Assembly: GCA_963205235.1 (NCBI GenBank)
Contig: CAUJIP010000014.1
Coordinates: forward strand, 1 to 64,000
Source of the DNA: Pseudomonadota bacterium
GTDB taxonomy: Bacteria; Pseudomonadota; Alphaproteobacteria; Rhodobacterales; Rhodobacteraceae
DNA: 64,000 nucleotides
Direction: 5' to 3'
Below the pieces are notes generated by a model, which searched no databases, was not told where the DNA came from, and saw only the letters and a list, made by a program, of their open reading frames with translations. Shown here one piece after another: positions 40,041 through 43,592 of the stretch (positions are counted from its first letter, which is position 1; each line of letters begins with the position of its first letter). A program made the translations under genes and the position numbers.

Positions 40041-41282
40041 ATGCTGATACGCGAGAATACTGACATTGCCGTGATCGGCGCGGGTGTGGTGGGGTTGACC
40101 ATCGCCCTTGAACTGGTCGAAGCCGGGCGCGACGTGGTGCTGGTCGACCCCGATCAACCGGGCATGGGCGCAAGCTATGGCAATGCCGGCACCATCGCGG
40201 GCTATGCGACCAGCCCGGTCGGCACGCCGGATGTGCTACGGTCCTTGCCGTCGCTGATGTTTTCCAAGACCTCGCCGCTGGCGATCCGGCACCGGGCCTT
40301 GCCAAGCCTGATGCCTTGGCTGGTGCGATTTCTGCTGCAATCCTTGCCGAAAGCTGCGGCGCGGAATGCGCGGGCCCTTGCCATGCTGCTGGACGATGCG
40401 GCTGAGCGTTGGGATGATCTTGCGCTGCGGGTGAACGGTGCCGGAATCCTGCAACGCCGGGGCTGTCTTTACCTTTACGAAACCGACGCGGCGCTGCAGG
40501 CCGCCGGGGCCGAAATGGCGCGGCGTCGCGACCTGGGAGTCGCGGTCGATTTGATCGGTCCCGACCGTCTGGCCGAGCTTGAGCCGGGCCTGCCGCAGGG
40601 TCTGGGTGGTGCTGCGCATTTCCCCGAAGCGACGTTCCTGGATGATCCGGGCCGGATGATGGGGTTGATTGCAAAGTCGGTGCTGGGTCGGGCGCGGTTG
40701 ATCACGGCGCGGGCCGACCGGTTGCTGCGCGGCCCTGACGGGGTGGTGATCGAAGGGCCGGGCCTGCACCTGCATGCGCGCCGGGTGATCATCGCCGCCG
40801 GGGCGCATTCGCGCGATCTGGCGCGGCAGGCGGGCGACCGGATCCCGCTGGACACCGAACGGGGCTATCACGTCGAATGGGACATGAAGACATCGCTCTT
40901 GTCGCGCCCGACCTGCCCGACCTCACGCGGGTTCTATTTCTGCCCGATGGCCGGGAGATTGCGGGTTGCGGGGACGGTCGAGCTGGGCGGGTTGACCCTT
41001 CCGCCGTCGCCGCACCGGGTGCGAAAACTGGTCGAAGGCGCGCGGGCGTTCTTTCCTGACCTGGGTGAACCGGACCGCGAATGGATGGGTTTTCGGCCAA
41101 GCCTGCCAGACAGCCTGCCGGTGATCGGGCCATCTGCGGCCGGTGCAGAGGTGATCCATGCTTTCGGTCACGGGCATCTGGGGGTGACTATGGCCCCCAT
41201 AACTGCCAAGATCATCGCCGATCTTGTTGCCGACCGGGCACCGCACCTGGACATCAGCGCGTTGCGCGTGTCCAGGTTCTAA
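40041..41282 (+). CDS. FAD-dependent oxidoreductase (DadA/D-amino-acid dehydrogenase-like)
   Basis: 413 residues. N-terminal dinucleotide site IAVIGAGVVGLTIALELVEAG, GASYGNAGTIAGYA (flavin contact typical of DadA-like enzymes), and C-terminal GFRPSLPDSLPVIGPS with FGHGHLGVTMAPITAKII. DAO-type enzymes oxidise amines or amino acids to imino acids. It follows the GS-like/ALDH/ADH genes on the same strand after a hairpin and may process the amino acid released by that pathway (inference). It converges on the small-peptide array; 39 nt separate the stops. Confidence 0.88.
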   Translation: MLIRENTDIAVIGAGVVGLTIALELVEAGRDVVLVDPDQPGMGASYGNAGTIAGYATSPVGTPDVLRSLPSLMFSKTSPLAIRHRALPSLMPWLVRFLLQSLPKAAARNARALAMLLDDAAERWDDLALRVNGAGILQRRGCLYLYETDAALQAAGAEMARRRDLGVAVDLIGPDRLAELEPGLPQGLGGAAHFPEATFLDDPGRMMGLIAKSVLGRARLITARADRLLRGPDGVVIEGPGLHLHARRVIIAAGAHSRDLARQAGDRIPLDTERGYHVEWDMKTSLLSRPTCPTSRGFYFCPMAGRLRVAGTVELGGLTLPPSPHRVRKLVEGARAFFPDLGEPDREWMGFRPSLPDSLPVIGPSAAGAEVIHAFGHGHLGVTMAPITAKIIADLVADRAPHLDISALRVSRF

Positions 41283-41321
41283 GTTCTCATCCCAGCGTCA
41301 TTCGACCGGGTTCAAGCGGGC

Positions 41322-41537
41322 TCACTCAAGCCGCGGATCGGTGTCGTCGTTGCCACCGCAAAGCGCTGCACACAGGGCGACGGTGACGAGGATGATCGGC
41401 AGGATGCCGACTGACGAGGTCGGCTTGGCTGGAACAACTTCGGTTTCGTCGTCGATGATCACCGGGCCGCCAGCGAAGGCGACGGTCGACGAAAGCGCGA
41501 GGGTTGCAGCGAGGATCGGAGCGGCGAGCTTTTTCAC
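41322..41537 (-). CDS. small secreted/membrane peptide, tandem family copy A
   Basis: 71 residues from GTG 41537 (VKKLAAPILAATLAL). A signal peptide of about 22 residues ends at VAFA; the mature core begins GGPVIIDDETEVVPAKPTSS and continues VGILPIILVTVALCAALCGG, one hydrophobic helix ending in Cys-x3-Cys-Gly-Gly. The tail is NDDTDPRLE. The 40-residue core is identical to copies B and C although the DNA differs at several third positions, which points to selection on the peptide. It is the last gene of the array on the minus strand. No known family recognised. Confidence 0.8.
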   Translation of the reverse strand: MKKLAAPILAATLALSSTVAFAGGPVIIDDETEVVPAKPTSSVGILPIILVTVALCAALCGGNDDTDPRLE

Positions 41538-41690
41538 TGGAAAGTCTTTTCGTGGGGTTGGACCCACGTTCCGTTGATCGTGGGTCCGGTGTCAAATGGA
41601 TTGGGCATCGGGCCGGTGCGACCGATCACCGCCCACCTAAATCATGGTGCGGAAATCTCGGTCACGCCGGTCTTGATATCAGACCCGATG

Positions 41691-41912
41691 TCAGCGCGGG
41701 TCTTCTTCCTGCGGATCGTCGTTGCTGCCGCCGCAAAGCGCGGCGCAGAGGGCGACGGTCACGAGGATGATCGGCAGGATACCGACCGACGAGGTCGGCT
41801 TGGCCGGAACAACTTCGGTTTCGTCGTCGATGATGACCGGCCCACCAGCGAAGGCGGTCGCGGAAGACAACGTGATCGTTGCAGCGAGGATCGGCGCGAG
41901 GAATTTTTTCAT
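41691..41912 (-). CDS. small secreted/membrane peptide, tandem family copy B
   Basis: 73 residues from ATG 41912 (MKKFLAPILAATITL), with GGGACAC as ribosome site. The signal peptide ends at ATAFA. Core identical to copies A and C (GGPVIIDDETEVVP, then the VGILPII...CAALCGG helix); the tail is acidic, SNDDPQEEDPR. The core places an acidic segment outside the membrane and a single helix with two cysteines near its C-terminal end. It lies about 150 nt upstream of copy A and 200 nt downstream of copy C. Confidence 0.82.
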   Translation of the reverse strand: MKKFLAPILAATITLSSATAFAGGPVIIDDETEVVPAKPTSSVGILPIILVTVALCAALCGGSNDDPQEEDPR

Positions 41913-42064
41913 GATGTGTCCCATAGGATTAAGGTCGATTCGCATTCTGCGATCTTACTCTAGGGGGCGGCCACAATTGCTGCAATACAGGCGGAAATTC
42001 TTGCGTCGATCCCGCTTTGGGCGTTGCACGGGGAGCACAGCACAGAACGTTGGTGTGGGCAGCG

Positions 42065-42095
42065 AAAAGGCCAGACTCAAGGAGTCCGGCCTTTT
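42065..42095 (-). terminator. Rho-independent terminator between peptide genes C and B
   Basis: AAAAGGCC-A-GACTC / GAGTC-C-GGCCTTTT with a 3-nt loop. A-tract and T-tract flank the stem, so it works in either direction. It lies 25 nt after the stop of copy C, showing that C and B are separate transcription units. Confidence 0.75.
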
Positions 42096-42119
42096 GCGTT
42101 GGGTCGTTGATCGAAGCGA

Positions 42120-42341
42120 TCAGTCTATGGTCGAGTCTACCGGGTCGTCGCTGCCGCCGCAAAGCGCTGCGCACAGGGCAACGGTGACGAGGATGATCGG
42201 CAGGATACCAACCGACGAGGTCGGCTTGGCCGGAACAACTTCGGTTTCGTCATCGATGATCACCGGGCCGCCCGCGAAGGCGGCGGTGGAAACGGATAGC
42301 GCCAGACCGGCGGCCAGGATCGGAGCAAACAGGTTCTTCAT
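42120..42341 (-). CDS. small secreted/membrane peptide, tandem family copy C
   Basis: 73 residues from ATG 42341 (MKNLFAPILAAGLALS), with GGGGA seven bases upstream. The signal peptide ends at TAAFA. Core identical to copies A and B; the tail SDDPVDSTID is again acidic. A bidirectional terminator follows the stop. About 200 nt separate it from copy D, enough for its own promoter. Function unknown; the sequence predicts a periplasm-exposed N-terminus and a single membrane helix. Confidence 0.82.
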   Translation of the reverse strand: MKNLFAPILAAGLALSVSTAAFAGGPVIIDDETEVVPAKPTSSVGILPIILVTVALCAALCGGSDDPVDSTID

Positions 42342-42494
42342 GGTCAGTTCCCCATTGAATTGGACGGGGACTTCCGCCCGCGCCTTTCTGTTAGCATCTT
42401 GTCCTTCAAAAGCAAGACTGGCGACGAGACGGTCAAGGATTCCCTACCGTCTGTTCAAGCACGATCTTGCGGACTGCCAGGTAAAATGAACAAA

Positions 42495-42519
42495 GCCCGC
42501 CGGATCCAATCCGGCGGGC
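42495..42519 (-). terminator. Rho-independent terminator after peptide gene D
   Basis: 11-bp stem GCCCGCCGGAT / ATCCGGCGGGC with a 3-nt loop (CCA). Read on the minus strand it is followed by TTTGTTCATTTT. It lies 29 nt after the stop of copy D. Confidence 0.75.
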
Positions 42520-42547
42520 CGATGCCAGAACGGCAGTGATGCCGCGA

Positions 42548-42760
42548 TTACTTGTCGCGCAGGTCTTCGTTGTTGCCGCCGCACAGTGCAGCGCAGAGGG
42601 CAACCGTCACGAGGATGATCGGCAGAATGCCGACCGACGACGTCGGCTTGGCCGGAACGACTTCGGTCGTATCGTCGATAATCACCGGGCCGCCTGCAAA
42701 GGCGGTGCCAGCCGAAATCACCAGCGCCGAAGCGAGCGTAGCTGCAAGAACACGTTTCAT
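42548..42760 (-). CDS. small secreted/membrane peptide, tandem family copy D
   Basis: 70 residues from ATG 42760 (MKRVLAATLASALVIS), with GGGAG seven bases upstream. The signal peptide ends at GTAFA. The core differs from A-C at one residue (DDTTEVVP instead of DDETEVVP); the helix and CAALCGG are unchanged. The tail is NNEDLRDK. It starts 27 nt after the stop of copy E, so E and D are probably one transcript, ended by the hairpin downstream. Confidence 0.82.
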   Translation of the reverse strand: MKRVLAATLASALVISAGTAFAGGPVIIDDTTEVVPAKPTSSVGILPIILVTVALCAALCGGNNEDLRDK

Positions 42761-42786
42761 GGTAAGTCTCCCAGACCTGTCGGATT

Positions 42787-43017
42787 TCAGCAGTTGACCG
42801 CAGCGCTGCACTTGGTGGGCTCGGGATCACTGCCTCCGCAGAGTGCAGCGCAAAGTGCCACCGCAACAAGAATGACCGGAAGGACCCCCATGCTGGACGC
42901 GGGCTGGTCGGCGACCACTTCGACAGTGTCGTCGACGATGACGGGACCGCCAGCCATGGCCATGGGCGCAGACAGCGCCAGCGTTGCGGCAAGGATCGGT
43001 GCAAGAAGCTTTTTCAT
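42787..43017 (-). CDS. small secreted/membrane peptide, tandem family copy E (divergent)
   Basis: 76 residues from ATG 43017 (MKKLLAPILAATLALS), with GGGGG six bases upstream. The signal peptide ends at PMAMA. The core is the most diverged: GGPVIVDDTVEVVADQPASS then MGVLPVILVAVALCAALCGG. The tail is longer and unique, SDPEPTKCSAAVNC, adding two cysteines. It is the first gene of the array, with 180 nt of non-coding DNA upstream that should hold the promoter. Its divergence suggests it is the oldest copy or has a separate role. Confidence 0.8.
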   Translation of the reverse strand: MKKLLAPILAATLALSAPMAMAGGPVIVDDTVEVVADQPASSMGVLPVILVAVALCAALCGGSDPEPTKCSAAVNC

Positions 43018-43200
43018 TTTTTCCCCCATAGGACTGAGCCCGTCGCGGTCAGACCTGTGGATCCGTCTGAGGGGATCCCGACGTGACGCTCGAGCGGTGC
43101 GGAGGATGCTATTAACCTATGGGTGCAGCATCAATCCCAAGGGAAAAATGATCCGGGCAAGAGATATGAATGTGACTTCTGGGATACAGTTTCTTCCAAA

Positions 43201-43452
43201 TCAGCCGACCAGCGCCTTGATCGCCTGCCGGTTCGGGCAGAAGTCCGGCATCGTCACGGCTTGGCCCGCCGTTGCCAACCACATTTCGCATTCGCGGCCC
43301 CGGTCGCAGGCAGCACAGCGCGCCACCAACGTCTCAAGCTCGGTCCGCTGCAGCCAGCCTTCGACAACGGCTTGGGGCAGGTTCACCCCGCTGATCCGCG
43401 CCATTCCGCGCGTCAGCCACCAGGCCTTGGGAGCTTCGGGATAGCCAATCAT
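43201..43452 (-). CDS. DUF6455 family protein
   Basis: 83 residues from ATG 43452 (MIGYPEAPKAWWLTRGMARI). The conserved cysteines are in VARCAACDRGRECEMWL and MPDFCPNRQAIKAL, giving the C-x2-C-x5-C...C pattern seen in this small alphaproteobacterial family. It is soluble, with no signal peptide. The cysteine arrangement suggests metal binding; no function is known. It is monocistronic, about 180 nt upstream of the small-peptide array on the same strand. Confidence 0.75.
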   Translation of the reverse strand: MIGYPEAPKAWWLTRGMARISGVNLPQAVVEGWLQRTELETLVARCAACDRGRECEMWLATAGQAVTMPDFCPNRQAIKALVG

Positions 43453-43592
43453 GCAGGACCACCTTGGATGAGGGAACGGAGGCTCGATACTGCAAAGGGT
43501 GCCGTCAGAGCCGCGCACCCGCTTTGACGCAGATCAAGCAGCCAAGTGGTGCTGCCCCGGACCGGGCCGGAGCAGCGGAATTCGGCAAAGCC

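Follow-up and report, generated by a model that had tools for sequence, protein, structure and literature searches.

Tandem genes for exported single-helix peptides in Tabrizicola and a possible YjbE/GfcA-like role in polysaccharide export

YjbE and GfcA (PF11106) are the small first-gene products of the Escherichia coli operons yjbEFGH and gfcABCDE-etp-etk. One paper links gfcABCD and yjbEFGH to capsule or exopolysaccharide and puts forward, as the authors' suggestion only, that GfcA is O-antigen-modified and carried out through GfcD (PMC8592465). In one E. coli strain, according to another report, the capsule was lost on deletion of gfcA and restored by plasmid-borne gfcA (PMC3853201), and mutations of the yjbEFGH operon are named among those that alter capsule anchoring in E. 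coli (PMC8117528). A 2024 paper calls GfcA entirely uncharacterised and models GfcD as a route for lipid-anchored polysaccharide (PMC11494523). Here we analysed a stretch of 64,000 nucleotides (the window) from contig CAUJIP010000014.1 (C14) of a Rhodobacteraceae genome of the genus Tabrizicola. It carries an array of five tandem genes for small exported peptides, which we compare with YjbE and GfcA. Open-licence PMC papers yielded, with the terms used, nothing on these peptides in Rhodobacteraceae.

The array spans positions 41322-43017 and consists of five minus-strand open reading frames (ORFs), A to E, with products of 70-76 residues. All five were identified from the ORF, its translation and a profile match:

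41322..41537, minus strand: peptide gene A, 71 aa, GTG start
41691..41912, minus strand: peptide gene B, 73 aa; in-frame alternative ATG upstream at 41924
42120..42341, minus strand: peptide gene C, 73 aa
42548..42760, minus strand: peptide gene D, 70 aa; one core residue unlike A-C
42787..43017, minus strand: peptide gene E, 76 aa; most divergent core; in-frame alternative ATG upstream at 43029

A repeat search recovered the same arrangement as five direct repeats of a 194-nt family, one per gene. Each product consists of a Sec-type signal peptide ending in AFA or AMA, a shared 40-residue core that contains the only hydrophobic helix of the mature peptide, and a tail that varies between copies. 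The mature core starts GGPVI(I/V)DD and continues through a PxSS.G.LP turn into the helix, which ends CAALCGG; the tails in the window are 8-14 residues long and mostly acidic. The translations bear out what the initial annotation had described, namely the AFA/AMA signal peptides, the identical core proteins of A, B and C and the single residue by which D differs, the core of E being divergent. The envelope location proposed there agrees with the predicted signal peptide and helix. The five tandem paralogous genes for exported peptides are thus confirmed. The profile matched 11 sites in this genome and all 32 genomes of the genus that were examined, so the pattern goes beyond chance reading frames.

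We tentatively favour the explanation that the array arose by amplification in this lineage and that its Sec-exported, single-helix products act in the envelope as YjbE/GfcA do, as the small partner of the outer-membrane apparatus YjbF-YjbH (GfcB-GfcD) for polysaccharide export. Once freed of its signal peptide, each product would be held in a membrane by its helix, forming homo- or hetero-oligomers, possibly trimers. The core that all copies share would provide the surface for assembly or for contact with a partner, and the variable tails, acidic or of the Thr/Ser kind, would help to export or anchor surface polysaccharide. The array copies may derive from a YjbH-linked founder as variants for dosage or for particular conditions.

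The best functional lead comes from a paralog outside the window. Contig C127 of the same genome carries YjbH (PF06082, E 1.3e-182), YjbF (PF11102, E 6.3e-24) and a family peptide in this order on one strand, with the peptide directly behind YjbF and with Omp85/TamA-like and TamB genes also beside it. A family member lies at the same position in 19 of the 25 genus YjbH loci that were read, and in four of the remaining seven genus genomes the coordinates place a peptide behind YjbH-YjbF. Across the family, a peptide lies within 2 kb of YjbH in 12 of 70 genomes (8 on the same strand, 4 on the opposite one), against roughly 0.15 genomes expected by a rough estimate. These 70 are the genomes with both a peptide and YjbH among the matches listed; this genome, another of our set (G001) and some second copies of the same cluster were omitted. 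The 12 close pairs come from different genera, and in 11 the distance is 707-957 bp, with 1291 bp in the last.

A family-blind scan for short ORFs with a signal peptide and one helix was applied to the flanks of 34 YjbH loci. It found such an ORF on the downstream side in 20 of them (18 on the same strand, 2 on the opposite one) and none upstream in the same 34, against a background of 6 in 620 kb of genus loci. The peptides at this position form a series, from AGGPVV-type sequences (L171, L182, L185) to YjbE-like endings (L187, L192, L081). The L171 peptide reads AGGPVVVVDE...LIASDDNDDSTDTTD and the L185 peptide AGGPVIVAAE...VASDGGNGSSTTTTTD, while the L187 peptide has a build close to that of E. 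coli YjbE; Thr-rich tails also occur in same-position peptides of other genera. Separately, contig C72 of this genome (5320-5568) matches the beginning of YjbH once more over a short stretch (YjbH positions 3-89, E 2.7e-15).

The peptide family is widespread. With the narrow profile, the 11 sites of this genome are divided among the window (5), C68 (2), C57 (1), C127 (1) and C89 (2), and all 32 Tabrizicola genomes examined have at least one copy, 28 of them at least three; outside the genus, 1 of 29 genomes matched. A broader profile gave 12 matches in this genome and, at E 0.01 or better, matches in 171 of 248 Rhodobacteraceae genomes, a sample in which almost every genome represents a different genus. 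This answers the family-wide search for the core that had been proposed earlier. Genomes of other genera mostly carry one or two copies. The common form there reads MKK...AGG..EPV.EPEVV..SSSSGG(I/L)(V/I)(V/I)PLLLLLVVAAAVSN. It shares its layout with the window peptides and matches the same profile; unlike them, it often has little or no tail. In six genomes of other genera (G067, G148, G176, G256, G260 and G295), short relatives reach 5-9 copies, with several arranged in tandem, which points to repeated amplification. Copies also occur in Tabrizicola soli and in Rhodobacter sp. SY28-1. A plasmid search with one broad-family peptide gave no match. Similar short proteins probably bear the mistaken name 'ferrochelatase' in public annotation.

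The same comparison bears on a redox or metal role through the Cys-x3-Cys motif, which the initial annotation had raised. Of 115 genus members, 102 carry the motif, which counts in favour of such a role. However, it occurs in only 1 of 44 peptides from other genera, among the matches listed, and the C57 and C89 copies lack it in their helix, as do two of the three array copies of genome G002; moreover, the cysteines sit at the end of the helix. As the function of the family, this role is therefore very improbable.

Several observations weigh against a YjbE/GfcA-like role, and the first group concerns gene context. Nine genus YjbH loci without a peptide were re-read over 9-18 kb and still showed none, and 14 of the 34 loci in the family-blind scan had no such peptide in the scanned flank, although a few of these are cut by contig ends and one (G035) has a form fused to an S74 domain, described below. 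The window array adjoins no polysaccharide gene and has other neighbours instead, so that the YjbF/YjbH linkage holds for the C127 paralog and the genus loci cited above, not for the window array itself. Furthermore, YjbH-linked genus members were part of the input to the broader profile, which is thereby biased towards recovering such copies. Across the 248 genomes, peptide and YjbH are both present in 114, the peptide alone in 57, YjbH alone in 31 and neither in 46; this co-occurrence is significant but loose (Fisher p 1.5e-4, uncorrected for relatedness), and it leaves 57 of the 171 peptide-bearing genomes without a YjbH match.

The second group concerns the comparison with YjbE and GfcA themselves. 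The likeness is one of architecture: a Sec-exported product of small size in which a single hydrophobic segment leads into a G/D-rich turn and then a polar tail. In addition, the YjbH-linked copies share their loci with YjbF and YjbH homologues. By eye, against E. coli K-12 YjbE and GfcA, the short exported build (signal peptide, hydrophobic segment, polar tail) is shared. However, the Ser/Thr-rich stretch of YjbE and GfcA contrasts with the GGPV...PASS linker and acidic tail of the family, and the window tails are short and mostly acidic, not Thr-rich. The gene order in the YjbH-linked loci is H-F-peptide, compared with E-F-G-H in E. coli, and no GfcC/YjbG was noticed between the genes of these loci. 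The family also has multi-copy arrays away from YjbH and S74 fusions, which set it apart from YjbE and GfcA.

Sequence searches against YjbE gave little. No family member passed the Pfam YjbE gathering score of 27.9 bits in any of 41 genomes, and the window peptides had no match up to E 1. The best family member scored 18.5 bits (E 0.0024 as a single protein, profile positions 8-72 of 79), and in a search of the same-genus genomes the best match was a family member at E 0.02. Of ten peptides compared with the YjbE model one matched, the nine without a match including the Thr-tailed peptides from YjbH loci. The model also produced sub-threshold matches in four unrelated control genomes, and only 3 of the 24 matches listed fell on family members; these weak YjbE matches therefore mean little. 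When a YjbE-like set was aligned with the family set by hhalign, only the signal-peptide region aligned (probability 84%), and we therefore do not claim homology of the mature part to YjbE/GfcA as proven. The peptides are thus not formal members of Pfam YjbE. The link to YjbE rests on genomic place and architecture, sequence support being weak, and the function is inferred.

A different explanation of these data is that the peptides are general microproteins of envelope structure or stress: abundant, built around a single helix, forming oligomers in the inner membrane (or associating with the outer membrane) and tuning envelope properties. Polysaccharide export would not be their particular task, and YjbH would be just one of several neighbourhoods in which they occur. 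The peptide-bearing genomes that lack a YjbH match speak for it, as do the non-YjbH neighbours of the main array, of the C57 copy and of the locus of the S74 fusion, and the common short form of other genera (ending ...LLLLLVVAAAVSN), which is almost tail-less. Conversely, the enrichment beside YjbH at near-constant spacing in different genera, and the series of same-position peptides grading into YjbE-like forms, speak against it. We regard this explanation as possible.

Some copies of the peptide are joined to a second domain. On contig C89, and in three other genus genomes that were read, a peptide copy runs on into a Peptidase_S74-like domain (PF13884), with about 10 residues between helix and domain; none of the window copies A-E has it. 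A full match of signal peptide, helix and S74 domain was found in 14 of the 248 genomes. Two fusions were scanned against the Pfam cut-off of 22 bits, which one passed (L063, 28.4) and the other just missed (L075, 20.2). S74 domains are otherwise found in phage endosialidases and in MYRF, where S578/K583 of MYRF and the equivalent endosialidase residues reportedly form the catalytic pair (PMC3742443). The fusions resemble these proteins in carrying a C-terminal domain with the Ser-(4 residues)-Lys pair, and differ from them in that the domain stands behind the signal peptide and membrane helix of a tiny bacterial peptide. The Ser-Lys pair, with Lys five residues after Ser, is kept in all 14 full-match genomes and in all six fusions of another comparison set. 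The stretch before Ser measures 70-89 residues from a script-picked Met, compared with 61-87 residues in stand-alone copies. Self-cleavage by the S74 domain would therefore release a peptide of normal stand-alone size. S74 domains work as trimers, which hints that the stand-alone peptides may be trimeric too. The fold predicted for one fusion from its single sequence had low confidence (mean pLDDT 57.4) and was too poor to use.

One locus joins the two strands of evidence. In G035 (L123, 11673-12125), a gene convergent to YjbH-YjbF encodes a peptide in which CAVGCGGGGD is combined with a Thr tail and an S74 domain; this ties the S74 fusions to the YjbH linkage. As a side observation, a protein that by eye is of the Hint (hedgehog/intein) type, our cluster c19, recurs near S74-fused peptides (L072, L073, L075) and likewise near arrays of the C68 type (also L060, L064).

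The fusions and the distribution also bear on two toxin-like explanations. Tandem type I toxin-antitoxin toxins of the Ldr/Ibs kind, each silenced by an antisense RNA, would fit small hydrophobic peptides encoded in tandem repeats. The signal peptide with its conserved A-x-A site and the S74 fusions argue against them, as neither is known as a feature of that kind of toxin, and Rfam had no match at gathering score in 41000-43400; we hold this explanation to be very unlikely. Membrane-active secreted peptides, bacteriocin-like or signalling, with specificity residing in the tails, would likewise be small, exported, hydrophobic and multi-copy with variable tails. However, the family is present in 32 of 32 genus genomes, not patchily, S74 fusions exist, and the tails are acidic, not cationic. 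No immunity or export gene lies beside the array, judging its neighbours by eye, in agreement with what had been noted before. We consider this explanation improbable.

The charge of the tails was counted in the genus. In total, 118 members were found in genus loci, of which 115 entered the codon work (3 deviated from the start/GGP rule) and 102 of these lie in array loci; the five of the 115 with at least 100 aa were omitted from length and charge counts. Among the 110 stand-alone copies, the net charge of the tail is negative in 87, zero in 20 and positive in 3, so the earlier description of the tails as variable and mostly acidic holds across the genus. The same counts address C-terminal sorting-tail proteins of the PEP-CTERM or VPLPA-CTERM kind, cut by a sortase-like enzyme, which are suggested by the Pro-containing motif before a hydrophobic helix near the C-terminus. 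Such sorting tails end in a basic cluster. Here, no basic cluster follows the helix, and the sole anchoring-type NCBIfam match is weak (invert_tail, 14.2 vs 37 bits, in one of five members scanned), which makes sorting exceedingly improbable. The bacteriocin-like, type I toxin, redox or metal and CTERM-sorting explanations were each weighed and set low on the evidence given above.

Searches for a known family agreed with the initial annotation, which had recognised none. The window peptides had no match over cut-off in Pfam and NCBIfam (best sub-threshold E 0.13 and E 0.0055) and only weak matches in PHROGs (best E 0.031). PADLOC gave no match up to E 1 for one window peptide and two others, and a PDB profile search gave two weak matches (E 0.13 and 0.69).

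What is conserved in the array is the core, and purifying selection acts on it. In pairwise codon comparisons, the cores of A, B and C have dN = 0 with pS 0.23-0.32 and dS 0.28-0.42, the dN/dS check that had been called for. The core of D differs from these by its one residue at dS 0.65-0.80, and that of E has silent sites near saturation (dS 1.74-2.94) with dN 0.18-0.22. Throughout A-E the core is far less changed than the signal peptides and tails. The initial annotation had ascribed this to selection rather than recent copying; selection stands, but copying seems to act as well. Core dS is below signal-peptide dS in all six pairs among A-D, and above it in all four pairs with E, comparisons that rest on few sites and are noisy. 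Because of this difference, some old gene conversion of the core among A-D, on top of selection, is likely.

The genus-wide data extend this pattern. For the 102 array members, the cores of one genome share an identity of 0.80, against 0.58 between genomes; the corresponding values are 0.45 and 0.40 for the signal peptide and 0.35 and 0.25 for the tail. The nearest neighbour lies in the same genome for 52 of the 102 cores, 19 of the tails and 12 of the signal peptides, with 3.4 expected by chance. Four-fold-site differences of the core are 0.38 within and 0.47 between genomes, and in G019 the cores are 95% identical, yet their silent differences reach 0.48. The matching of cores within genomes seems to reflect selection together with infrequent or old conversion, which this test separates incompletely. 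It would be accounted for if the copies had a partner in common or combined in a single assembly, and a core that forms the contact surface for assembly or for a partner would keep array mates alike within each genome.

Two further observations concern array copies. At L042, L044, L050 and other main-array loci, the signal peptide of the first gene is nearly fixed across species (close to MKKLIASVMALTLGASAAMA), while the core of this gene tracks its array mates. At L052 (3833-4132, G025), an array copy leaves the core after 'IPIIL' for an unrelated frame, either because the copy is decaying or because the assembly is wrong there. Upstream of the 115 copies, a k-mer search found no notable 8-mer, the top 6-mer being TAGCGT in 17 of 115.

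Bringing these lines together, one may picture YjbE/GfcA-type peptides as assembling by themselves, probably into trimers, to anchor exported polysaccharide in the membrane. Some Rhodobacteraceae copies would then be built by way of a self-cutting S74 chaperone domain that leaves a peptide of stand-alone size, and the Tabrizicola array would co-evolve its core so that copies mix while their tails differ. We put this fuller picture forward as speculative and rather unlikely in its entirety.

The remaining features at the array concern expression and neighbours:

42065..42095, minus strand: terminator-like hairpin and T run 3' of gene C (looser hairpin test; not in the stricter scan)
42494..42520, minus strand: terminator-like hairpin and T run 3' of gene D (stricter scan and looser hairpin test)
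40041..41282, plus strand: FAD-dependent oxidoreductase, DadA-like by eye (flank of the array)

The earlier proposal that each gene has its own ribosome site applies to B-E, which have GGGA-, GGAG- or GGGG-like Shine-Dalgarno sites, but not to A, whose GTG start has no clear one. Similarly, separate transcription through terminators can be upheld for C and D at most. The stricter scan found a single terminator, after D, while the looser hairpin test placed one after C and one after D, and none after A, B or E. E lies upstream of D with a gap of only 26 bp, so the two are probably co-transcribed. Directly upstream of the array, 43201-43518 on the minus strand encodes a DUF6455 protein (PF20056, E 4.1e-19).

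In the genus, the main array is typically flanked on one side by a 2-hydroxyacid dehydrogenase gene and on the other by genes for an FAD oxidoreductase, alcohol and aldehyde dehydrogenases and a glutamine-synthetase-like protein (names by eye). The FAD-dependent oxidoreductase (cluster c5) recurs on one array flank in 14 of 41 loci, and reading the neighbourhoods gave no sign that it has a part in peptide function. In this genome the array appears to be split, C68 holding one flank and C14, the contig of the window, the other; G020 shows the same pattern (C10 and C2). An ancestral array appears to have been divided by rearrangement in both genomes. The unlinked halves on C68 and C14 still both carry the helix sequence VALCAALC. 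A tRNA scan of six loci found one tRNA, a tRNA-Val in L010.

For a peptide family this widespread, the YjbH-YjbF neighbourhood offers a first testable idea of function, and a YjbE/GfcA-like role would give a first label to common hypothetical small proteins of an abundant bacterial family. The family supplies many natural YjbE-like variants, some of them in cultured environmental bacteria. Its matched-core arrays, and its S74 fusions, which predict trimerisation and self-cleavage, would make the stalled question of capsule and exopolysaccharide export experimentally simple.

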